In this document: positions 9,281 to 25,411 of the stretch, in pieces
How the letters are laid out: each line of letters opens with the position of its first letter
Position numbering within the stretch: position 1 is the stretch's first letter
DNA from: a virus
IMG/VR virus record: IMGVR_UViG_3300008448_000356
Span: 1-32,885 of that record
DNA: 32,885 nucleotides
Strand: one strand, 5' to 3'
Notes under the pieces: generated by a model
What the model saw: only the letters and a program-made list of their open reading frames with translations
Told to the model about the DNA's origin: nothing
Databases searched by the model: none
Position numbers and translations under genes: made by a program

Positions 9281-9756
9281 ACTAATTCTAATTCGTTTAA
9301 CATTCCTTTTATTTCTGTTGTTATTCTCATTGTTTCAACCGCTCCAACTTCGTCTAATATCATTTGGATTCTTTCGGGTGTTATGATGCTACTAATTAAT
9401 TCAACACCTCCGAAACGTTCCCTTTTCCACCCCTCATTTGCTATTTTCCTTGCTATTAAAAAAGCTAAAGAGCTTAAAGTTATTGTTTGTAAAGCGGTGT
9501 TAAAAACTCCTTTATCAATTATCCACTTTTTAATATCTGCAATGTTTGGAAACCTACCCGCTTTTCGCCCCGTTTCTAATTGTTGAGCGTAATCGTTACC
9601 TAATAATTTAGCATTGTACCCTATTGGTGTTTCGGTGTAGATTGTTTCTAAACTATCAACAAATGCACCCGATGCTCTCATACCTTTACTTTCGTATAAT
9701 AAAGCAATATCGGTTTTGATTAACTCCCACCCTTTTATTAATTGTTGGTTAAGCAT
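9277..9756 (-). CDS. HK97 gp10-like head-tail completion protein
   Basis: 159 aa. Central 'YAQQLETGRKAGRFPNIADIKKWIIDKG' (residues about 56-83) is the recognisable motif of HK97 gp10-like/tail-completion proteins (a Tyr-Ala-x-x-x-E-x-G segment followed by Phe-Pro and Ile-x-x-Trp-Ile). The C-terminal half is helical. Such proteins join the neck to the tail or cap the tail tube. Overlaps the upstream gene by 8 bases and the downstream gene by 4. Confidence 0.74.
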   Translation of the reverse strand: MLNQQLIKGWELIKTDIALLYESKGMRASGAFVDSLETIYTETPIGYNAKLLGNDYAQQLETGRKAGRFPNIADIKKWIIDKGVFNTALQTITLSSLAFLIARKIANEGWKRERFGGVELISSIITPERIQMILDEVGAVETMRITTEIKGMLNELELV

Positions 9757-10192: not shown

Positions 10193-10737
10193 TACTTTTG
10201 TTTCATTTTTAATTCGTTAAACTTATTTTGCACTTTCGATTTTTTACTATGCAATACCAATAAAGTCAATATTTCATTATACGCTTTATTTTGCAAATCG
10301 TAAGGGTAAATACTATAAATTTCCCCCAATTGAACTAAAGGCATTAAATCACTAAAAACGTTTAACGAACTACCTCCAGCTTGTTCCCATAAACCCGCAT
10401 CAGCATCAATTGAATTTAATAACTTTGCCTCTTTCTCTTGCGTGTCTTTTAAATACTTAATTATAAAATTCTTTGCACTAAAATACTCCTCAATCGATGC
10501 ACTCCAAAAAACTAACTTTTCAACATTAAACGCAATGCAAAACATATCGCACATATCGTCTAACGTTTTACCATTATTCGCTAAATAAAACAATTTTCTT
10601 ACCTCTGCATACGTTATTTTATTATAATCGAGTTTAGAGTTACAAAATAAATTTAAAGGCTTTAAAGCGTTTAAAATCAAATCGTACTCTAACGTGTCGA
10701 ATAATTGTGAATATTGTTTTATTGTTAATTTATTCAT
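10192..10737 (-). CDS. Unknown late protein directly after terminase
   Basis: 181 aa from the ATG at 10737. Frame is open 24 codons further upstream, but that extension overlaps the terminase 3' end and would be read from promoter sequence, so it was not used. The protein is mostly helical, acidic in the middle, with 'SIDADAGLWEQAGG' near residue 120 and a basic C-terminus. In this position one expects a head-tail adaptor or a tail protein, but I do not recognise the family. A TATCTTTG box ends 6 nt before the ATG. Confidence 0.72.
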   Translation of the reverse strand: MNKLTIKQYSQLFDTLEYDLILNALKPLNLFCNSKLDYNKITYAEVRKLFYLANNGKTLDDMCDMFCIAFNVEKLVFWSASIEEYFSAKNFIIKYLKDTQEKEAKLLNSIDADAGLWEQAGGSSLNVFSDLMPLVQLGEIYSIYPYDLQNKAYNEILTLLVLHSKKSKVQNKFNELKMKQK

Positions 10738-12526: not shown

Positions 12527-12757
12527 TTATTGTTTAAATTTTTGGTTGTAGTAGTCTTGTGGGTTTTCGTAATTTACATAAAAGTCAGTTTGTAATGCGT
12601 CATTTTGTACATTATTAATAAATTTCTCTTCTTTTTCGAGTTTAGATTTAGCTAAGTCAATATTCAATCTTAAAGTAGTTGAAATAAATGGATTAAAAGA
12701 AACTCTTAATACTTCCTCTAACTCATCAATCAACTCTTGCATCGGTGTTTTTTCCAT
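12527..12757 (-). CDS. Small phage protein, helical, unknown role
   Basis: 76 aa. 'TPMQELIDELEEVLRVSFNP' at the N-terminus followed by an acidic/basic helix ('AKSKLEKEEKFI') matches the pattern of small phage proteins that begin MQELI and form a helical hairpin; a role is not known. Separated from terS by 38 bases that hold the late promoter. Follows the 49 aa gene by 2 bases. Confidence 0.72.
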   Translation of the reverse strand: MEKTPMQELIDELEEVLRVSFNPFISTTLRLNIDLAKSKLEKEEKFINNVQNDALQTDFYVNYENPQDYYNQKFKQ

Positions 12758-15529: not shown

Positions 15530-15534
15530 TTACC
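15281..15534. repeat. GGTAAC iteron-like repeats
   Basis: The 6-mer GGTAAC, usually as AAGGTAACAW, occurs on the minus strand at 15281-15286, 15435-15440, 15443-15448, 15509-15514, 15520-15525 and 15529-15534, and inverted at 15328-15333. Spacings of 8, 11 and 9 bases in the two dense groups put several copies on about the same helix face. The last copy overlaps the stop of the T5orf172 gene. One further copy (inverted) was seen at 22095-22100 near another promoter. Confidence 0.75.
15321..15447. repeat. Perfect 16-bp inverted repeat, arms 95 bases apart
   Basis: GTAACAAGGTAACATT at 15321-15336 and its exact reverse complement at 15432-15447. Each arm contains a full and a partial copy of the GGTAAC iteron, so the pair is probably two opposed binding sites for the same protein. 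A long cruciform is possible but not needed. Confidence 0.8.
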
Positions 15535-16108
15535 TTTTTATATAAAGTTTAAACCCTCTTTTATATTTACCTTTTATATTATAAGGTTTGTTATCTATTT
15601 TTAATTTAGATAATATGTCTTTTAATTCATTTTTATCAAATGAATTTTTACTTTCTTCATTTAATATATTTAAAATTTCGCTTTGACTTAAAACAACCTC
15701 TTCGTATAAATCTTTTTTATTAGCTGAAAAAATATAATCAAATAAATCATTTTTATAATTTTCACTTTTAAATATGTTTTTCTTTTTTGCCCACTCAATT
15801 TCAAAATCGTTTCTTTCTTTTAAATCCTCTAAACTCATATAAAAAGAAATCGTTTCTTTTGCTTTTTCTACTGAAATATTAAACCATTCTCCTTTTAATC
15901 TATATTCATTAAATTTTTTATGCAATTCAGTTTCTAATTTCTTGGGATTATCACATATAATAAAACCTATAATTTCAGCTCCAAAAGGAGAATAAGTTTT
16001 CATTTGCTCAAATCTACTAATTGGACTTTCTTTATCGCTAAATCCAATTTTAATAGCATCAATGCCTAAATGTTTAAAAAAATAAACGCAACCTTTTTCT
16101 GTTTTCAT
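15530..16108 (-). CDS. T5orf172 (GIY-YIG-like) domain protein with a primase-type C-terminal domain
   Basis: 192 aa from the ATG at 16108; the longer frame to 16174 encodes only promoter/terminator DNA read as hydrophobic codons. Residues 6-95: T5orf172/MUG113 domain, with 'GCVYFF' (6-11), 'KIGFS' (20-24), Arg32 in 'SRFEQM', 'ETELHKKF' (59-66) and 'GEWF' (73-76), a GIY-YIG-type nuclease fold. Residues about 121-192 resemble the last 75 residues of the neighbouring primase ('EVVLSQSEILNILN' versus 'EVVLSQGQILNFLN'), a DUF3874-like winged-helix-type domain. It has its own promoter. It may be a homing-type or replication-associated nuclease that targets the same site or partner as the primase. 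Confidence 0.8.
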   Translation of the reverse strand: MKTEKGCVYFFKHLGIDAIKIGFSDKESPISRFEQMKTYSPFGAEIIGFIICDNPKKLETELHKKFNEYRLKGEWFNISVEKAKETISFYMSLEDLKERNDFEIEWAKKKNIFKSENYKNDLFDYIFSANKKDLYEEVVLSQSEILNILNEESKNSFDKNELKDILSKLKIDNKPYNIKGKYKRGFKLYIKR

Positions 16109-16131
16109 ATTTGTAATATTTAATATCTTTA

Positions 16132-16162: not shown

Positions 16163-16194
16163 AAAAAGTAACAAATATTTTACTATTTGTTACT
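16160..16194 (-). terminator. Terminator after the primase gene
   Basis: Minus strand: AGTAACAAATA (11), loop GTAAAA, TATTTGTTACT (11, perfect), then a run of eight T. The stem begins within the primase stop codon (16190-16192). AT-rich but long; the U-tract is good. Confidence 0.75.
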
Positions 16195-18352
16195 CTATTT
16201 TTTGCGTGTACAGACAATATCCTCTCATTGTTTTTCCATATTTTTTATAAAGTTTGTTTTCTAACTTATTTTTAGTAACAATGTCTTTTACGTCGTATTT
16301 TGTAACCACAAAGTTAGCAACACCATTTAAAAAATTTAGTATTTGCCCTTGACTTAAAACAACTTCAACTTCAAAAAACTGATTTCTTTCAATAGAAAAA
16401 TGCTCAAAAAATAAATCTTCAACTGGCATATTTTCTATATTTTTTGTAGTTTCTTTTGCCAAAAAATCAACATCTTCATTACTGAATATTTTCCAATCAA
16501 AACCATTCTTATACATTTGATACGCCTCTAACCATAAGTTAGTAGTATTAAGTGAAATTAATCTGTCATAGTCAATTTTTTCTACATTGATAGGTAAAAT
16601 ACGTCTATTACCAGTAACGTCTTTTAATACATCTTTTTCGTTACTTGTTCCGCATAAACTTGCACGTCGTTTTAACTTTGAATAAAAAGAGGAATAAGGC
16701 AAACGAATATCGACCATATTTGTATCTGCTATTTTTTTAAAATCTTTTACATCACGTGTAGCTAAACCACCAAACTCGTCATCAAGAACTAATAAACCTT
16801 TAACTAAATTATAAATAGAATCTTTGTCTTTTGCATCTATTTTATGCTCAATTAAATACTTTTGCAAATCGGGTGGTAATAGATTACGAAAAAATGAAGT
16901 CTTACCAGTCCCTTGTTTTTGTCCACATAAAACCAAAGTTAACGGACTAACTTTTGGCTCGTTTATCGGTGCTAACCAATTATGAACACAACCTACTATC
17001 CATTTTTTAAACGCCCAAATATTATAATCACTTTTTGGCTCTATACAATTAATATAGTCATCAATAACGCTTTCTGAATTTTCGTGTAATTTTTGTTTAA
17101 AGAACTCGTTTAACGGATTAAAAAAAGTAGTATGTTCACTATTAATCATATCTCTAACATCTGACTTTGTAGGTATAAAATCCAAATAATTTTTACAAGC
17201 AAAATAAATAGTATTTAGTTTTACATCGTCTAAAAGTTGACCATTTATAAAAACTTCATTTGTGATAGTATCTTTAACTGGGTTGTAATTTTCAAATATA
17301 AAAGTTTGTAACTTTTTAGAATCTGTTAATGTTTCGTCAAGTTGTTTATAGTCTTTTTTGCTTTCAATTAAAAACTTTATAAGTTCGTCGTCTGCATCAG
17401 TAATGTTATTTATTTTTTCAAGTGATTTTTTAACGCTTTCAATTGTTGGGTTACCTTGACTTTTAGCAACCGAAACACGATTTATAATTGTTTCTGTTTT
17501 TTCTGAATAAAGTTTTAAACCTAATTCTTTAGCATAAAAATAAATAGTTGATATACTTACTGCGCCATTATTTTTGCAAAAGTTTTTATAGTGTTTTTCA
17601 ATTTTATTTTGGTCATACTTTGAGCCATATTTACAAATAGCATCAAAATATTCAAATCCACTTTCTCCAAACTTTGAAGCTATTGCAAAACCAATTCTAA
17701 CATATCTATCATAATCGTCTTGGCAAAGGTCAATCTGTTTTTCTTGAACTTGTGAAATTATATTTTGAAAGTCATCATTAACAAAAACAAAATTATGTAC
17801 TTTTTCTTTTTTAATTACTTGTTTAGCAATAAACTTTTTTGAGTTTTCATTTAAAAATAAATAAGGGTCGTATGAAATAAAACGCAAACGATTTTTATTT
17901 TTACAACTTGGGTCAATAGCTACGTTGAAATTATCCCAATAATATTGAGCAAGTTCGTCAAAGCTTTCTAAAAACTTATTCGGATTAATTTTTACAAATA
18001 CACATAAACCATCGCCACCAAAAGAACGATGCGACATCATTGTATATTTATCTTGATTAATTTGGTTTAATAATTGTAAATCAACATCATCATCAATATC
18101 AATAACAATTAATCCGTTTAACTCCTCAATATTATCTGCAGTCTTACTTCCGTTTTTCATTACCGCAGACCCAGTTATACAAGGTGCTTTTATCTTACAT
18201 TGATTGTACGCCTCTTTGTCATTTTTTAAGGAACGTGCTTTTAGTACCAAATCTTGATAAGTGCCTTTTTGCACCATATCAATATAATCTTGTATATCAA
18301 TATCGATTTTATCAATACTTTTTGCAGTTGGGTATTTACTGAATTTTATCAT
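16190..18352 (-). CDS. Primase-helicase (BT4734-like / PriCT / VirE-VapE type)
   Basis: 720 aa. Order: BT4734-like primase domain (about 1-180) with metal-binding 'IDIDDD' (84-89) and 'HRSFGGDGLCVFV' (108-120); PriCT-2-like helical domain (about 195-275); linker; VirE/VapE SF3-like ATPase (about 410-640) with Walker A 'GQKQGTGKTS' near 477 and acidic Walker B 'LLVLDDEFG' near 520; DUF3874-like winged-helix-type end (646-720). It should prime and unwind the phage DNA. Bacteroidota phages and mobile elements carry this arrangement. The start overlaps the DEAH helicase end by 17 bases. A terminator begins at its stop codon. Confidence 0.92.
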   Translation of the reverse strand: MIKFSKYPTAKSIDKIDIDIQDYIDMVQKGTYQDLVLKARSLKNDKEAYNQCKIKAPCITGSAVMKNGSKTADNIEELNGLIVIDIDDDVDLQLLNQINQDKYTMMSHRSFGGDGLCVFVKINPNKFLESFDELAQYYWDNFNVAIDPSCKNKNRLRFISYDPYLFLNENSKKFIAKQVIKKEKVHNFVFVNDDFQNIISQVQEKQIDLCQDDYDRYVRIGFAIASKFGESGFEYFDAICKYGSKYDQNKIEKHYKNFCKNNGAVSISTIYFYAKELGLKLYSEKTETIINRVSVAKSQGNPTIESVKKSLEKINNITDADDELIKFLIESKKDYKQLDETLTDSKKLQTFIFENYNPVKDTITNEVFINGQLLDDVKLNTIYFACKNYLDFIPTKSDVRDMINSEHTTFFNPLNEFFKQKLHENSESVIDDYINCIEPKSDYNIWAFKKWIVGCVHNWLAPINEPKVSPLTLVLCGQKQGTGKTSFFRNLLPPDLQKYLIEHKIDAKDKDSIYNLVKGLLVLDDEFGGLATRDVKDFKKIADTNMVDIRLPYSSFYSKLKRRASLCGTSNEKDVLKDVTGNRRILPINVEKIDYDRLISLNTTNLWLEAYQMYKNGFDWKIFSNEDVDFLAKETTKNIENMPVEDLFFEHFSIERNQFFEVEVVLSQGQILNFLNGVANFVVTKYDVKDIVTKNKLENKLYKKYGKTMRGYCLYTQKIE

Positions 18353-19994
18353 AATATTGTTTTAATTTATCTTTTAATTTTGTTTTTAAAAATGCTAATG
18401 TTCGGTTTGTTTTACTTGGTAAAACATTGATAATCTTTATAAATGGCTCTCCTAATATACGATTTATTTTTTTATCAAAAGTACCATTATGTATGGATTG
18501 TTTGTAACTTCCAAAAGTAACTTTATTTTTTACAAATAAATCAAATGTTTGATTAATAAGTATTTTAAATGCAAAATTTATGTTCTCATTAATTGATTGA
18601 ACGTACTTTATAATTTTTTCTCCACTTGGATATATCTGTTTAACTTTTACTGCAGTAATTTGATTTGTTACTATTTCAACTTCTTTTTCTTCTACTTCAA
18701 TTATTGGTTCTTCATAACCGCAGTTAGGACATTTTTTTTCGGATTTCATTTTTAAAAATCCACATTGTTTACATTCGTTAATATCGTCTAAACTTTCTTT
18801 TAATTGTTTAGGTGGTTTCAATCCGTTAAAAAATATCTTTTCCCAATCCCTTGTTTTATCTGACCACATTCCTAATCGGTCTGAATTACCGCCACCATCA
18901 ATAAAGATAAATTTATCTTTAAATATTTTTTTTGTTATCCTTGCACCGCGCCCAGCAATTTGAATAAATAATGATAACGATGCGGTGGGTCGTGCCATTA
19001 TAATCGCTTCAACATCGTCAACATCAAAACCTTTAGTAAAACAACTAACATTTAATAATATTGCATCACGTTCATTTTCAAACCAACGTATTAATGGTTT
19101 ACGTTCTTTTTTATCATTGTTCACGCTATCATAAATTTTAACGTTGTAACCTTTTTCTTTAAACATTTCATAAATCAAAAGATTAACTTTTGTTGATGCG
19201 GTAAAAATCATTGTTTTTTTACCAAAACAAAGTTGTTCGTAATTGTGTAAAATATCAATTTTTATTTCTTCTTTTTCGTAGGTTTCGGCAATAGATTTTG
19301 ATGTAAACTCTCCAGTTTCGTCAGTCTTTAAATTACTTGTATTTACTGAAATTGAGTAAAGTTCTTCATCAACTAAATAATCATTCTCTATTAAATAATC
19401 AATTCCAACACCTACTACAATATCGTCATAAACATCTGACATCGTTTCTTCTTTTGTCCAAACTTTCATTTCGTAACCGCAATGTGTCGGAGGGTCAATA
19501 TCTTTTATAAATGGATATTCTGTATTACATTCGTTACACTTGTAAAATTTTATTCTTTTTAATCTTACTGGTGTAGCGGTAAAACCTATAATTTTACAAT
19601 TACTTGTATAATCAAAAATTTTGTTAAAAATCCAAATATGCGCTTCATCAATTATTAGATAATTAAATCTTTCAATTAAGTTAGTTTTTTTCTGCAGTCT
19701 ATTATATAAAGTTTGAGCCATTGAAACGACTACTTTATTATTTGGGAATATCTTATTTTTACTTTCAAATGTTGCGACGTCTAATCCTTGTTTTTGAAAC
19801 GTTTTAAAAGTTTGATTTACTAATTCCTCACTATCAACTAAAACTAAAATATGGTCGTTTAAAGTTTTAGTTAGTTCTGTAAATATAATAGTTTTACCGC
19901 CACCAGTAGAAAGTTGAACTAACAACTTATTTACACTTGGTAATTTAAACAAAATTTGTTCTAGTTGATTTTGTTGGTATGGTCTTAATTGCAT
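18336..19994 (-). CDS. DEAH superfamily 2 helicase with two zinc fingers
   Basis: 552 aa from the ATG at 19994 (MQLRPYQ, the usual start of this family); a longer frame to an ATG at 20018 or TTG at 20021 would lie inside a structured leader. Walker A 'STGGGKT' (29-35), 'DEAH' (116-119), 'TATP' (139-142), motif VI 'QIAGRGAR' in the second RecA lobe. Zinc sites: C153, C156 and C172 between the lobes' motifs, and 'CKQC...CPNC' after the second lobe. It resembles SSL2/RadD-like helicases of phage replication modules. First gene of a two-gene unit with the primase; expressed from a promoter within the previous terminator via a pseudoknot leader. Confidence 0.92.
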   Translation of the reverse strand: MQLRPYQQNQLEQILFKLPSVNKLLVQLSTGGGKTIIFTELTKTLNDHILVLVDSEELVNQTFKTFQKQGLDVATFESKNKIFPNNKVVVSMAQTLYNRLQKKTNLIERFNYLIIDEAHIWIFNKIFDYTSNCKIIGFTATPVRLKRIKFYKCNECNTEYPFIKDIDPPTHCGYEMKVWTKEETMSDVYDDIVVGVGIDYLIENDYLVDEELYSISVNTSNLKTDETGEFTSKSIAETYEKEEIKIDILHNYEQLCFGKKTMIFTASTKVNLLIYEMFKEKGYNVKIYDSVNNDKKERKPLIRWFENERDAILLNVSCFTKGFDVDDVEAIIMARPTASLSLFIQIAGRGARITKKIFKDKFIFIDGGGNSDRLGMWSDKTRDWEKIFFNGLKPPKQLKESLDDINECKQCGFLKMKSEKKCPNCGYEEPIIEVEEKEVEIVTNQITAVKVKQIYPSGEKIIKYVQSINENINFAFKILINQTFDLFVKNKVTFGSYKQSIHNGTFDKKINRILGEPFIKIINVLPSKTNRTLAFLKTKLKDKLKQYYDKIQ

Positions 19995-20008
19995 ATTATA
20001 TAAAAAGT

Positions 20009-20094
20009 TAAATCCCATCAATTTGGCAGTATTGTGAGAAGTGCCTCTTTGATAGGATTTATATAATATTTTTACATTTTGTAACGCTTCTCAC
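20009..20094 (-). ncRNA. Structured mRNA leader with an H-type pseudoknot (helicase/primase operon)
   Basis: On the minus strand the RNA can form stem 1, GTGAGAAG (20087-20094) with CTTCTCAC (20034-20041), 8 bp, and stem 2, TAAATCCTATC (20051-20061) with GATGGGATTTA (20009-20019), 11 bp with one G-U. The halves alternate (1-2-1'-2'), which is an H-type pseudoknot. Loop 1 is 25 nt and A-rich, the junction 9 nt, the last loop 14 nt. Stem 1 begins about 8 nt after the predicted start of transcription and stem 2 ends 14 nt before the helicase ATG, where folding would hinder ribosome entry. The leader at 24540-24617 has the same design. No known riboswitch was recognised. Confidence 0.6.
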
Positions 20095-20107
20095 TTCATT
20101 ACAGATA

Positions 20108-20137
20108 CAAATATAACTAAAAAAACCGAACTACAAA
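20108..20137 (-). promoter_or_regulatory. Promoter of the helicase-primase operon, inside a terminator
   Basis: TTTG (20134-20137), 18 bases, TATATTTG (20108-20115) on the minus strand. The -33 element is in the loop of the terminator at 20119-20149. The predicted start is near 20102, giving a leader of about 108 nt. Confidence 0.75.
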
Positions 20138-20149
20138 ATAATTCGGTTT
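20119..20149 (-). terminator. Terminator after the DUF3127 gene
   Basis: Minus strand AAACCGAA, 11-nt loop, TTCGGTTT, in a run of seven T. It begins 7 bases after the DUF3127 stop and ends the recombination operon. Confidence 0.82.
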
Positions 20150-22102: not shown

Positions 22103-22125
22103 TAATTTAGAATATATCTAAATTA
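22103..22125 (-). terminator. Hairpin at the end of the methyltransferase gene, weak terminator candidate
   Basis: Perfect 9-bp inverted repeat TAATTTAGA / TCTAAATTA with a 5-nt loop, starting in the methyltransferase stop codon. No U-tract follows on the minus strand and the stem is AT-rich, so it may only protect or punctuate the mRNA. Confidence 0.4.
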
Positions 22126-23154
22126 CATTTCTAAATCAAAACTAATTATACCTTGCTTTGCTTGTTGTTCTTTAAATCTTTTTTCCGCCTCTTTTAAATT
22201 TAATTTAGCTTGTTTAAAGTAACTATCTTTTAACTCTATACCAATTGCTTTTCTACCCATTGAAACTGGACTAAAAACCTCACTACCTACACCCATAAAA
22301 GGAGTTAAAACAACCTCGTTAGGATTAGAATATAGTTCAACAATTCTATCAATAACATCTAATTGCAAAGGGTGTACGTGCTTTTCGTCGTCCTCTTCTT
22401 TACTATCTCTAAAAGGTAATACATTATCTATTCTAATATCGTCCCAAACACTTGATGCGTAACGTTGCCAAATGTAATGGTTTAACTTTGTAATTTTATC
22501 AACCTCGTTAATATTGTTAAGGTGTTCCCAAAGTTCAACCTCGTTTAAGTTTGAGTTATTTGCATTGTTCCACGCTCTTAAAATGTTTGGTAAAATAGGC
22601 ACTTCACCAGCATAATGATTAATTCCAAAAGGGTGTGTTACTGGTACTTCGTTTTCGCCTTTTTTAGTAAATACAAGTACATAGTCAGGCATTGCAGTAA
22701 AACACTTTGTACTATCTTCAACAATAAATTTATGCATTAGACTTTGTACCATTGTACGCATACGAACTTTTAAAGGCTCTTTCCAAATTGTAATACGATT
22801 ACGATATTCAAATCCGTACTTTTGATGTATTCGTATAATTTCGTTTGGGAAATCCCACAATCTACAAGTATTATCAAATACATCGGTAGCGTGTACAGCA
22901 GTTATACGACCTTTTTTTGTTACTCTTGCTATTTCAGCTACTAAAAATTCGTATTGCTCCAAAAATTGTTCTTTACTTTCGCAGTTACTAAAATCATTTT
23001 CGCTACTTGAATAATTATACAATCCAGCAAAAGGCGGACTATAAACCGATAAATCAATGCTTTCGTTTTCAAGCGTTGGAAGTACTAACATACAATCACT
23101 ATTGTAAATTGCGTAGTTTTCTGTAATTACTTGGTCTTTTACTTTGTTTTCCAT
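22123..23154 (-). CDS. DNA methyltransferase (N4-cytosine/N6-adenine, beta-type order)
   Basis: 343 aa. Catalytic motif IV is 'SPPF' (39-42), typical of amino-methyltransferases and more often of N4-cytosine enzymes; the AdoMet-binding motif 'TPFMGVGSEVF' with 'IGIELKDSYF' comes near the C-terminus (about 290-320), i.e. IV before I, the beta class. It should methylate phage DNA, possibly for protection from host restriction. Stop of the SNF2 helicase gene is 2 bases away. No restriction nuclease is nearby. Target sequence unknown. Confidence 0.88.
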   Translation of the reverse strand: MENKVKDQVITENYAIYNSDCMLVLPTLENESIDLSVYSPPFAGLYNYSSSENDFSNCESKEQFLEQYEFLVAEIARVTKKGRITAVHATDVFDNTCRLWDFPNEIIRIHQKYGFEYRNRITIWKEPLKVRMRTMVQSLMHKFIVEDSTKCFTAMPDYVLVFTKKGENEVPVTHPFGINHYAGEVPILPNILRAWNNANNSNLNEVELWEHLNNINEVDKITKLNHYIWQRYASSVWDDIRIDNVLPFRDSKEEDDEKHVHPLQLDVIDRIVELYSNPNEVVLTPFMGVGSEVFSPVSMGRKAIGIELKDSYFKQAKLNLKEAEKRFKEQQAKQGIISFDLEM

Positions 23155-23156
23155 TT

Positions 23157-24527
23157 TTAAATAAATTTAGGTTTAATAATTTCTTTGTTAAATTCTTTTA
23201 CTTTGTTTTCAAAACTACGATTAACATTTTCTGTTAAATTTTTATGTAGTTGTATTGCTTTTTGTGTTTTCTGTTCTAATGCCTCTAATACTCTTGTTTG
23301 TCCGTCAGATATAACCATATCAATAGTAACGTCTTTTGTTTGTCCAAAACGCCAAAACCTACGAATAGCTTGATAATATTGCTCATAACTCCACGTTGGA
23401 AAAAATACCGAATGGTTGCAATGTTGCCAATTTAAACCCATAGAAGTCATTTTAGCTTTTGTAATAAGTCTTTCAATTTCGCCATTTGCAAAAGCTAAAA
23501 GTATTTCTTCTTTTTTATCTATGCTTTGACTTCCTATAATTTCAACTGCATTTTTATCACTTGCTTTTAAAATTGCACTTTCGTTGTTTGTGTTGCACCA
23601 GTAAACAGATGTTTTGCCTTGTGCTAATTCAATCGCTTTTTGACATCTTTTTTCTTCTGTTTGCTTTTGTTCAAATCGTATTTCATTAAAGTTTTTAGCT
23701 ACGATATTAAACATTTGCAATTGCCCGTCAACTGAAATTTGACTATCATTTGTAACGATATGTTTATTTACTATTAATTCAGGTAAATTATACCTATCGT
23801 TTGAAAATCCTAAATCGCTTGGCATTTTAGCCATAATTGACCATTGATTAACCCACGCAAAGAAATCCTTTTCAGCGTGAGGTTTTAAATAAAACTTTTC
23901 ACCTATATTTCTATTGGTACTATCAACTGCATTATTATTTTGCTTAAAGAATTTACCTAACATATCCATATAACCCATATATCCTAAAGCCTCTGAACTT
24001 GTTCCTAATTCTATAAAATCGTTTGGACTTGGTGTTGCGGTTGATAAAAAACGATAAGGTATTTTTTTTACAAAACTTGTAACTTCTTGTTTAATTTTTC
24101 CGTCAAAGTTTTTTAAAATACTACTCTCGTCTAAAATAACTCCTTCAAAATCCTTTTCGTTAAAGTAGTGTAAACGTTCGTAATTACATACAACTATTTT
24201 TTTAGTATGTTTTCCGTCTTTAGAATATTCGATATCATCAATACCTAGCTTTTCAGACTCTAAAATAAATTGAAACGCAACCGCTAAAGGTGTCAATATC
24301 AATACTTTTTTATTAGTATGATTTATGATGTTTTTTGCTAATGATAATTGAACTAAAGTTTTTCCTAATCCAGTATCTAAAAAAACCGCACTTCTACCTT
24401 TTTCAATAGCTTTTTCAATAACGTATTTTTGAAAGTCAAAAGCAATATCAGGAATATAATTTGCTTTAAATCCGAAGTTACCTATTGAGTGTTTTTTATT
24501 CTCAATAAATTTTAAATAATCATTCAT
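23157..24527 (-). CDS. SNF2-like superfamily 2 helicase
   Basis: 456 aa. Walker A 'DTGLGKT' (51-57), 'DESS' (133-136), 'STATPSPND' (162-170), and motif VI in 'QAIRRFWRFGQT' (about 385-397), the pattern of small SNF2-like phage helicases that are usually next to a DNA methyltransferase. It may remodel DNA for the methyltransferase or function in replication. First gene of its operon, read through a roughly 100-nt pseudoknot leader. Confidence 0.92.
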   Translation of the reverse strand: MNDYLKFIENKKHSIGNFGFKANYIPDIAFDFQKYVIEKAIEKGRSAVFLDTGLGKTLVQLSLAKNIINHTNKKVLILTPLAVAFQFILESEKLGIDDIEYSKDGKHTKKIVVCNYERLHYFNEKDFEGVILDESSILKNFDGKIKQEVTSFVKKIPYRFLSTATPSPNDFIELGTSSEALGYMGYMDMLGKFFKQNNNAVDSTNRNIGEKFYLKPHAEKDFFAWVNQWSIMAKMPSDLGFSNDRYNLPELIVNKHIVTNDSQISVDGQLQMFNIVAKNFNEIRFEQKQTEEKRCQKAIELAQGKTSVYWCNTNNESAILKASDKNAVEIIGSQSIDKKEEILLAFANGEIERLITKAKMTSMGLNWQHCNHSVFFPTWSYEQYYQAIRRFWRFGQTKDVTIDMVISDGQTRVLEALEQKTQKAIQLHKNLTENVNRSFENKVKEFNKEIIKPKFI

Positions 24528-24539
24528 ATTAAAAGAAAA

Positions 24540-24617
24540 GCCTTACTTCTAATCATACAACTGGAACTTGTATTTTCAAAATAAGGCGTTAATGTTTTTT
24601 TGTTAGGTAGTTCCAGT
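24540..24617 (-). ncRNA. Structured mRNA leader with an H-type pseudoknot (SNF2 helicase/methyltransferase operon)
   Basis: On the minus strand stem 1 is ACTGGAACT (24609-24617) with AGTTCCAGT (24560-24568), 9 bp perfect; stem 2 is GCCTTATTT (24579-24587) with AAGTAAGGC (24540-24548), 9 bp with one G-U. The order 1-2-1'-2' is a pseudoknot. Loop 1 is 21 nt and A-rich, the junction 10 nt, the last loop 11 nt. Stem 1 begins about 10 nt after the predicted start of transcription; stem 2 ends 12 nt before the helicase ATG. A competing small hairpin GGTA...TACC uses part of stem 1, so alternative folds are possible. There is no U-tract, so control would act on translation. Confidence 0.62.
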
Positions 24618-24632
24618 ACCTTTTTGATTTGT

Positions 24633-24640
24633 CAAAGATA
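24633..24640 (-). promoter_or_regulatory. Promoter -7 box of the SNF2 helicase operon
   Basis: TATCTTTG on the minus strand, an exact match to TAnnTTTG. No TTTG/TTG at the -33 distance, but TTATTAC repeats lie upstream at 24677-24713, which suggests activator-dependent use. Confidence 0.58.
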
Positions 24641-25017: not shown

Positions 25018-25411
25018 TTACACTATTTTATAATCAATTATACGTAAATTTTTAACTTCATAATCTCCGTTTTTATCAAATCTAACGTGTGCAAATCCGT
25101 GGTTGTATTTATTAAATGGATTGTACTCGGGTTCTAATCCACTTAAACAACCAGTACTCCAACAAGTTGTAATTTTGCCACCTAAAGATTTTTCGGTGTG
25201 TTCACTTGTGGTATGATGATGCCCAATTATACAACTTTCTTTAGCTTTTAAAAATAAACCTCTTGCTGGATTAACTGGTGGAGCAAAACCAGTTTTTTAA
25301 TAGCAACCTCGCTAATGACATTGTTGATGCTTTTGGCATTGATTCTATTAATTCTAAAACTATTTCCTTTTTGTAGGTTGTTGCTAATTGGTTTCCTTTT
25401 TTAAATGTCAT
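25018..25411 (-). pseudogene. Metallophosphoesterase gene, internally deleted and frameshifted
   Basis: The N-terminal 39-40 residues (MTFKKGNQLATTYKKEIVLE, then 'MPKASTMSLARLLLKN') start at the ATG at 25411 and their frame stops at 25271. In another frame, from about 25293 to the stop at 25018-25020, lies the C-terminus of a calcineurin-like phosphoesterase: 'FAPPVNPARGLFLKAKE', 'GHHHTTSEH', 'TTCWSTGCL', 'NHGFAHV'. Intact phage members that I remember have both ends joined by over 200 residues with the DxH, GD and GNHE metal sites, all missing here. The junction is at a run of six A (minus strand, 25293-25298); one extra A would join the ends in frame. No ATG occurs in the C-terminal part. 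Either a real deletion or an assembly error. Confidence 0.8.

Follow-up and report, generated by a model that had tools for sequence, protein, structure and literature searches.

Kissing-hairpin leaders head many operons of phages infecting Flavobacterium and its relatives and probably decide whether RNA polymerase continues into the gene

The window analysed here, i.e. the whole of IMG/VR virus record IMGVR_UViG_3300008448_000356 (32,885 bases; G+C 29%), belongs to a virus whose relatives include Flavobacterium phages. A preliminary description of this DNA reported two pseudoknot leaders of the same geometry, each located ahead of an SF2 helicase gene, which raises the question whether the element is real and, if so, what it does. 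The minus strand carries all genes concerned at both leaders, termed leader A and leader B below; for the phage RNA class we coined the name "kissing-hairpin leader". The genes and signals around the two leaders are as follows:

16190..18352, minus strand: VapE/PriCT-type primase-helicase, second gene of the DEAH-helicase operon
18336..19994, minus strand: DEAH/ResIII SF2 helicase of 552 aa, first gene after leader B, with its ATG at 19994
20123..20149, minus strand: ordinary intrinsic terminator closing the operon upstream of leader B
22123-23154, minus strand: N6/N4 DNA methylase, after the SNF2-like helicase
23157..24527, minus strand: SNF2-like SF2 helicase of 456 aa, the gene behind leader A

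The operon upstream of leader B encodes a 175 aa protein, a YqaJ exonuclease and a DUF3127 SSB. Two further observations concern the surroundings. The gene of a T5orf172/MUG113 (GIY-YIG-like) nuclease (15530-16111, minus strand) adjoins that of the VapE primase (16190-18352), and the two products have a C-terminal domain of 73 aa in common (44% identity, E 1e-11), the repeat being present in the DNA too; the small nuclease gene looks as though it had acquired the tail of the primase. Upstream of leader A lies the remnant of a metallo-phosphoesterase gene (25018-25330, minus strand), comprising ~80 C-terminal amino acids with a weak PHROG match and an interrupted frame.

Leader B, which spans positions 20103-20009 of the minus strand, is composed of the following elements:

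20108..20115, minus strand: -7 promoter box TATATTTG of the Bacteroidetes type (TAnnTTTG consensus), serving the DEAH-helicase operon
20080..20103, minus strand: hairpin 1 (H1), the expected RNA 5′ end; covaries in relatives (helix 1)
20087..20094, minus strand: 5′ kissing strand GTGAGAAG, the first half of the stem 1 described before; covaries (helix 2)
20062..20079, minus strand: A/U-rich linker between the hairpins, containing AATATTATA at 20070-20062
20034..20041, minus strand: 3′ kissing strand CTTCTCAC in the loop of hairpin 2, the second half of stem 1; covaries
20009..20061, minus strand: hairpin 2 (H2), from RNAfold; covaries (helices 3 and 4)
19999..20012, minus strand: U-rich tract ATTTAACTTTTTAT, terminator-like, starting right behind the last G-C pair of H2

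Both stems of the preliminary description are found at their place. Stem 1 pairs GTGAGAAG (20094-20087) with CTTCTCAC (20041-20034) over 8 bp, and stem 2 pairs AAATCCTATCA (20060-20050) with TGATGGGATTT (20020-20010) over 11 bp including one G-U, which RNAfold extends to 13 bp. The lengths given for the loop, the junction, the last loop and the distance to the ATG (25, 9, 14 and 14 nt) were each off by one, the correct values being 26, 8, 13 and 15 nt. These "pseudoknot" stems are embedded in two ordinary hairpins. The H1 stem TGTAATG/CGTTACA (20103-20097/20086-20080, 7 bp) carries the loop AAGTGAGAAG, and H2 consists of an outer stem of 13 bp (TAAATCCTATCAA/TTGATGGGATTTA, the former stem 2), an internal loop and an inner stem of 4 bp (GGCA/TGCC, 20045-20042/20028-20025) with the apical loop CTTCTCACAATAC. 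Stem 1 corresponds to an 8-bp loop-loop helix, the kiss, between GUGAGAAG in the 5′-terminal hairpin loop and its complement CUUCUCAC in the loop of H2; at the RNA level, the loop AAGUGAGAAG of the 7-bp hairpin faces the loop CUUCUCACAAUAC of the 13 + 4 bp hairpin. Since two further helices, TGTAATG/CGTTACA and GGCA/TGCC, covary as well, the element represents kissing hairpins with an intrinsic-terminator-like hairpin 2 rather than a plain H-type pseudoknot, i.e. two interleaved stems and no further hairpins. Thus, the topology had been recognised correctly and the full fold had not.

The transcript of leader B is expected to start ~4-7 nt beyond the -7 box, and its U tract ATTTAACTTTTTAT is interrupted, as in some other copies. 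In addition, an in-frame TTG (20021) and ATG (20018) are located within the 3′ strand of H2, 24-27 nt upstream of the used start codon at 19994; initiation there would require the hairpin to be opened.

Leader A, at 24.6 kb, has the anatomy of leader B in different letters:

24633..24640, minus strand: -7 box TATCTTTG, a TAnnTTTG-type match
24605..24621, minus strand: hairpin 1, AGGTA/TACCT with the loop CTGGAAC, kissing strand 24616-24610
24540..24587, minus strand: hairpin 2 (RNAfold), GCCTTATTTT/AGAAGTAAGGC with the inner stem ATACAA/TTGTAT

The loop GTTCCAG of its hairpin 2 is the second kissing strand (24567-24561), so that CUGGAAC lies opposite GUUCCAG in the RNA, and the tract TTTTCTTTT (24539-24531) follows right behind. 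Unaided, RNAfold predicts both hairpins in each leader, with z-scores of -3.1 (B) and -3.6 (A). The two leaders therefore agree in structure and not in sequence, as had been proposed, and the covariation in relatives described below points to selection on structure.

How far does this fold exceed chance? When the only requirement was that two stems, one of at least 8 bp and the other of at least 9 bp, interleave inside 120 nt, 10 and 3 places per strand were found in the window compared with 2-12 in shuffles, which equals chance. As bare stems occur at chance level in a window so AT-rich, the geometry argument of the preliminary description is insufficient and was not used as proof. Instead, the full fold was scored. 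The scanner employed accepts a site only if both hairpins are present and their loops pair with each other over at least 6 bp; its score is the sum of these parts, the energy of the kiss being calculated by simple stacking with no loop penalties. In the first form of the scanner the full kissing-hairpin fold of leader B reached -37.9 kcal/mol, compared with -25.0 kcal/mol for the best in six whole-window shuffles; leader A reached -31.1 kcal/mol with the corrected scanner. None of 200 shuffles of leader B matched its fold, and leaders A and B are the only promoter-bearing copies in the window. Promoter boxes were defined as consensus matches to TAnnTTTG, the -7 consensus of Bacteroidetes (PMC7366714).

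The scan was extended to 2.08 Mb of phage loci, the IMG/VR contigs among them being fragments, and at a threshold of -30 kcal/mol yielded 138 unique elements, whereas dinucleotide shuffles gave 15. With a TAnnTTTG box within 30 nt upstream, 95 elements were left and none in the shuffles; in most elements hairpin 1 begins 1-7 nt behind the -7 box. These loci had been fetched via helicase genes, and the kiss itself had served to choose the elements; for this reason a second sample of leaders was drawn by protein homology and promoter box only. In this sample the element was present in 44 of 56 leaders of the DEAH helicase (1.1 expected from shuffles), in 36 of 48 of the DUF3987 primase (1.4 expected), in 10 of 31 of the 175 aa protein (0.1 expected) and in 12 of 38 of the SF2 helicase (0.3 expected).

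Complete phages carry one or two elements each in the non-structural half of the genome: hattifnatt at 9372 and 14346, snusmum at 9722 and 14697, mumin at 12714, FCV-1 at 35875 and 40365, 11b at 33634, and Cellulophaga phi10:1 near 10253, where the box reads TATATTTA. Bacteroides phage B124-14 has no element. Among loci centred on the terminase, which cover 1.13 Mb and comprise three annotated phages, promoter-bearing elements are rare; 11 were listed, mostly located far upstream of the terminase. In a 1.2 Mb sample of host DNA, taken from Flavobacteriaceae chromosomes, the structure scanner found no element with a promoter box at -30 kcal/mol; at -26 kcal/mol there were three elements compared with one in shuffles. 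A covariance model (R1) gave no match in 397 Flavobacteriaceae genomes, where scoring covered only 9 of the thousands of first-look candidates in each genome, and a contig search for prophages returned two MAG contigs only.

The relatives also show which features of the element are kept. All DEAH-helicase homologues with an intact leader have the fold in differing letters: the kissing strand GTGAGAAG of the window and of locus L003 is replaced by GTGAGACG with the matching CGTCTCAC in L004, by GCACTAC/GTAGTGC in L005 and by TTGAGAGG/CCTCTCAA in L010. In an alignment of 12 sequences all four helices covary; 97.7% of the alignment cells are paired compared with ~33-43% in a slid alignment, and 23 of 30 pairs have changed on both sides; none of 500 shuffles came as high. 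For the kiss helix alone, by which the aligned elements had been chosen, 97.9% of the cells are paired and 6 of 8 pairs covary. Further instances with covariation, on whose existence the preliminary description had made its proposal depend, were thus found. Taken together, the shuffles, the promoter association, the covariation and the protein-selected leaders rule out chance pairing; it is the comparative evidence, drawn from sequence, that decides for the reality of the element.

Altogether, ~53 distinct kissing sequences were collected from IMG/VR relatives and from Flavobacterium and Cellulophaga phages. The order of the kissing strands is swapped in some copies, e.g. GTGAGAAG/CTTCTCAC and CTTCTCAC/GTGAGAAG. 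Not one base is conserved across the whole class, and unpaired positions vary too. Where one phage has several loop codes, these do not pair across copies (mean -2.2 kcal/mol); nevertheless, selection for distinct codes per phage is unsupported, as cross-pairing amounts to 5.4% within and 6.4% between phages.

Some features are shared by subsets of the copies. The linker stretch AATATTATA (20070-20062) is strongly conserved in the alignment of the closest relatives, where GAAAATATTATA is near-invariant in the unpaired linker between the hairpins (window 20062-20070, minus strand), and AYATTA occurs in 28 of 92 linkers against 6.5 expected from shuffles; this motif may represent a tertiary contact or a binding site. 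A conserved short stretch, AATAGTTATCGGTAATC, lies between hairpin 2 and a 77-aa ORF behind several copies (L012 8572-8619, L248 ~10340, L019 ~10970). Moreover, the leader of one helicase homologue (L174) has, almost immediately behind the promoter box, a single plain hairpin that resembles a terminator, AAAGCCCTAAATTAATAGGGCTTTTTTT, and no kissing partner; this is perhaps a stripped-down form of the element.

The preliminary description had placed the element before SF2 helicase genes and nowhere else, and had suggested that it coordinates the two operons concerned. Neither claim is supported: the genes behind the elements fall into 29 clusters and at least 25 gene families, the DUF3987 primase with its 36 of 48 leaders being one of them, and many leaders of the same SF2 helicase lack the element. 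Only a minority of the SF2-helicase homologues possess it, the rest having a leader that is short and plain, or else lacking their own promoter. Helicase-specific regulation was rejected on these grounds. The families downstream comprise helicases, VapE-type and DUF3987 primases, Lin1244-type replication proteins, the DUF3127 SSB, a methylase, HNH and GIY-YIG endonucleases and several unknowns; none of the 29 clusters was recognised as a virion gene. GIY-YIG homing-endonuclease genes stand directly behind a kissing leader in L006/L100 and L168. In L006 the gene sits between the element and the helicase, so that the element now heads the endonuclease.

The 3′ end of most elements has terminator features. 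Behind hairpin 2, a U-tract score of at least 3, i.e. of terminator grade, was obtained for 89% of the elements; strong hairpins reached it in 25% and random sites in 16% of cases. In protein-picked leaders (three of four families) the share was 98%, compared with 38% of hairpins just after stop codons. As read from the sequences, the anatomy of the class is a host-type promoter, directly behind it a 5′-terminal hairpin, and ~10-30 nt further on a longer hairpin with a U tract; 6-10 nt of both apical loops are perfectly complementary, this complementarity being kept while the letters change. Hairpin 2 ends 4-34 nt and the U tract 5-30 nt before the start codon.

The succession of promoter, hairpin, terminator-like hairpin and start codon is the arrangement of an attenuator, and with hairpin 2 read as an intrinsic terminator this attenuator would stand between the promoter and the first gene. 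We therefore favour, with a probability of roughly 0.55, a promoter-proximal attenuator in which a terminator-like hairpin, its loop held by hairpin 1, would gate early and replication operons. Hairpin 1 would fold first while RNA polymerase leaves the promoter, and its loop would catch the emerging loop of hairpin 2 before the terminator stem is complete. The loop-loop contact would then set the frequency of stops at the U tract. Its likely use would be to delay early and replication operons until read-through is permitted by a phage signal. The kiss may either favour or block termination. Since kiss and terminator stem are compatible, this would not be a classical either-or attenuator. Without competing with the stem, the kiss may influence how fast or in which geometry the terminator folds where the RNA leaves polymerase, or it may present a shape read by polymerase or a factor. 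Counted against an attenuator, H2 contains an internal loop, its loop of 6-14 nt is larger than in a textbook terminator, a simple terminator scan made no call on H2, and the U tract is interrupted in leader B and some other copies.

With no sequence conserved, recognition of the element must rest on its shape, either by polymerase or by a factor of phage or host that is able to recognise kissing RNA. More tentatively, the self-kissing terminator could be a purely shape-coded signal of flavobacterial phages, read at the head of early and replication operons by a single phage or host factor or by polymerase, in which the loop letters are free as long as they match. If true, this would constitute an undescribed mode of processive or conditional termination control.

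Other functions were weighed against the attenuator. A processive antiterminator, in which the kissing RNA binds polymerase and lets it ignore first the U tract of the element and then operon-internal terminators, seems unlikely. It would fit the position right behind promoters of non-structural phage operons and the two hairpins, as in HK022 putL (PMC9378689), as well as the start of H1 only 1-7 nt past the -7 box; however, putRNA is read through conserved bases whereas the kissing class has none, a loop-loop contact is unreported for put, and the element terminates in its own U tract. Slightly less likely still, a protein such as a phage SSB could bind the structure near the start codon and block ribosome entry, as the distance of 4-34 nt from the end of H2 to the ATG and the location of leader B directly behind the DUF3127 SSB gene would allow. 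Yet the ATG distance varies, many genes follow the element and an SSB gene only rarely, and the U tract would be left without explanation. Start-codon sequestration by the linker is likewise unsupported, as the linker pairs more weakly with the start region (mean -1.9 kcal/mol) than shuffled linkers do (-3.1 kcal/mol).

Hairpins at the extreme 5′ end stabilise bacterial mRNAs (ompA type), and with H1 starting at about +1 a 5′-terminal hairpin tied to hairpin 2 might keep decay enzymes off the 5′ end. We consider this improbable, as a stabiliser needs neither a U tract nor an ATG-proximal hairpin. Least probable among these alternatives is a source of phage small RNA, where most transcripts would stop at the U tract, the ~95-nt RNA would act in trans and the gene would be expressed via read-through. 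A promoter plus a terminator-like end are indeed the criteria for intergenic sRNAs (PMC7366714), but the loops differ and copies within one phage do not pair with each other (mean -2.2 kcal/mol), a lack of cross-pairing that is no stronger than between unrelated phages, and there is no conserved seed.

Taken together, kissing-hairpin leaders are a widespread RNA class at the head of many operons in phages of Flavobacterium and its relatives, and the arrangement of promoter, hairpins and U tract suggests that the element probably decides whether RNA polymerase continues into the gene. Almost every letter is free and only the base pairing is kept, and sequence-based family searches would therefore miss the class. 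The element marks promoters of early and replication operons in Flavobacteriia phages, whose transcription programme is, to our knowledge, nearly unknown. It also offers a case where a loop-loop contact within one nascent RNA may set termination, and the more than 50 loop codes found in nature amount to a set of compensatory mutants that already exists.

The kissing-hairpin leader is a member of none of the known families tested. The window and five related phage loci gave no match above the gathering threshold in Rfam 15, riboswitches included, in line with the earlier suggestion of an undescribed leader RNA class, and no kissing or attenuator leader of Bacteroidota phages was found in the open-access literature searched. 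By analogy, the nearest functional counterpart is the put RNA of HK022 (putL/putR), likewise a cis-acting phage RNA that forms two stem-loops immediately behind the promoters of early operons. However, conserved bases of put (A9-G35 and others) contact polymerase (PMC9378689), and neither a kiss nor a terminal U tract has been reported for it, whereas the kissing leader, in Bacteroidota phages, keeps its structure with free sequence in ~53 loop codes and has only the sub-family linker motif between its stems.

With leader attenuators (pT181-type antisense, T-box and riboswitch terminators) the element shares the terminator-like stem and U tract between promoter and first gene, and an upstream RNA segment that interacts with the terminator hairpin. 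In contrast to them, this segment pairs in cis with the terminator loop and spares the stem, instead of forming a mutually exclusive antiterminator pairing, and no ligand pocket, leader peptide or antisense RNA was found. Unlike the conserved ligand-binding nucleotides of small-molecule riboswitches, the unpaired positions vary. The gp32 protein of phage T4 binds a pseudoknot in its own mRNA leader and acts on translation; the gene 32 leader resembles the kissing leaders in that the leader of a phage mRNA adopts a pseudoknot-type fold close to a replication gene, but the latter carry a U tract and precede many unrelated genes of at least 25 families, rarely that of an SSB, rather than the gene of their own RNA-binding protein. 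Finally, the kissing loops of ColE1 RNA I and RNA II are recognised by Rop, a protein that reads the kissing shape and not the sequence. As in the phage leaders, ~7-nt loops of two hairpins are fully complementary; the ColE1 kiss is formed between two molecules, whereas that of the kissing-hairpin leader is formed within one.
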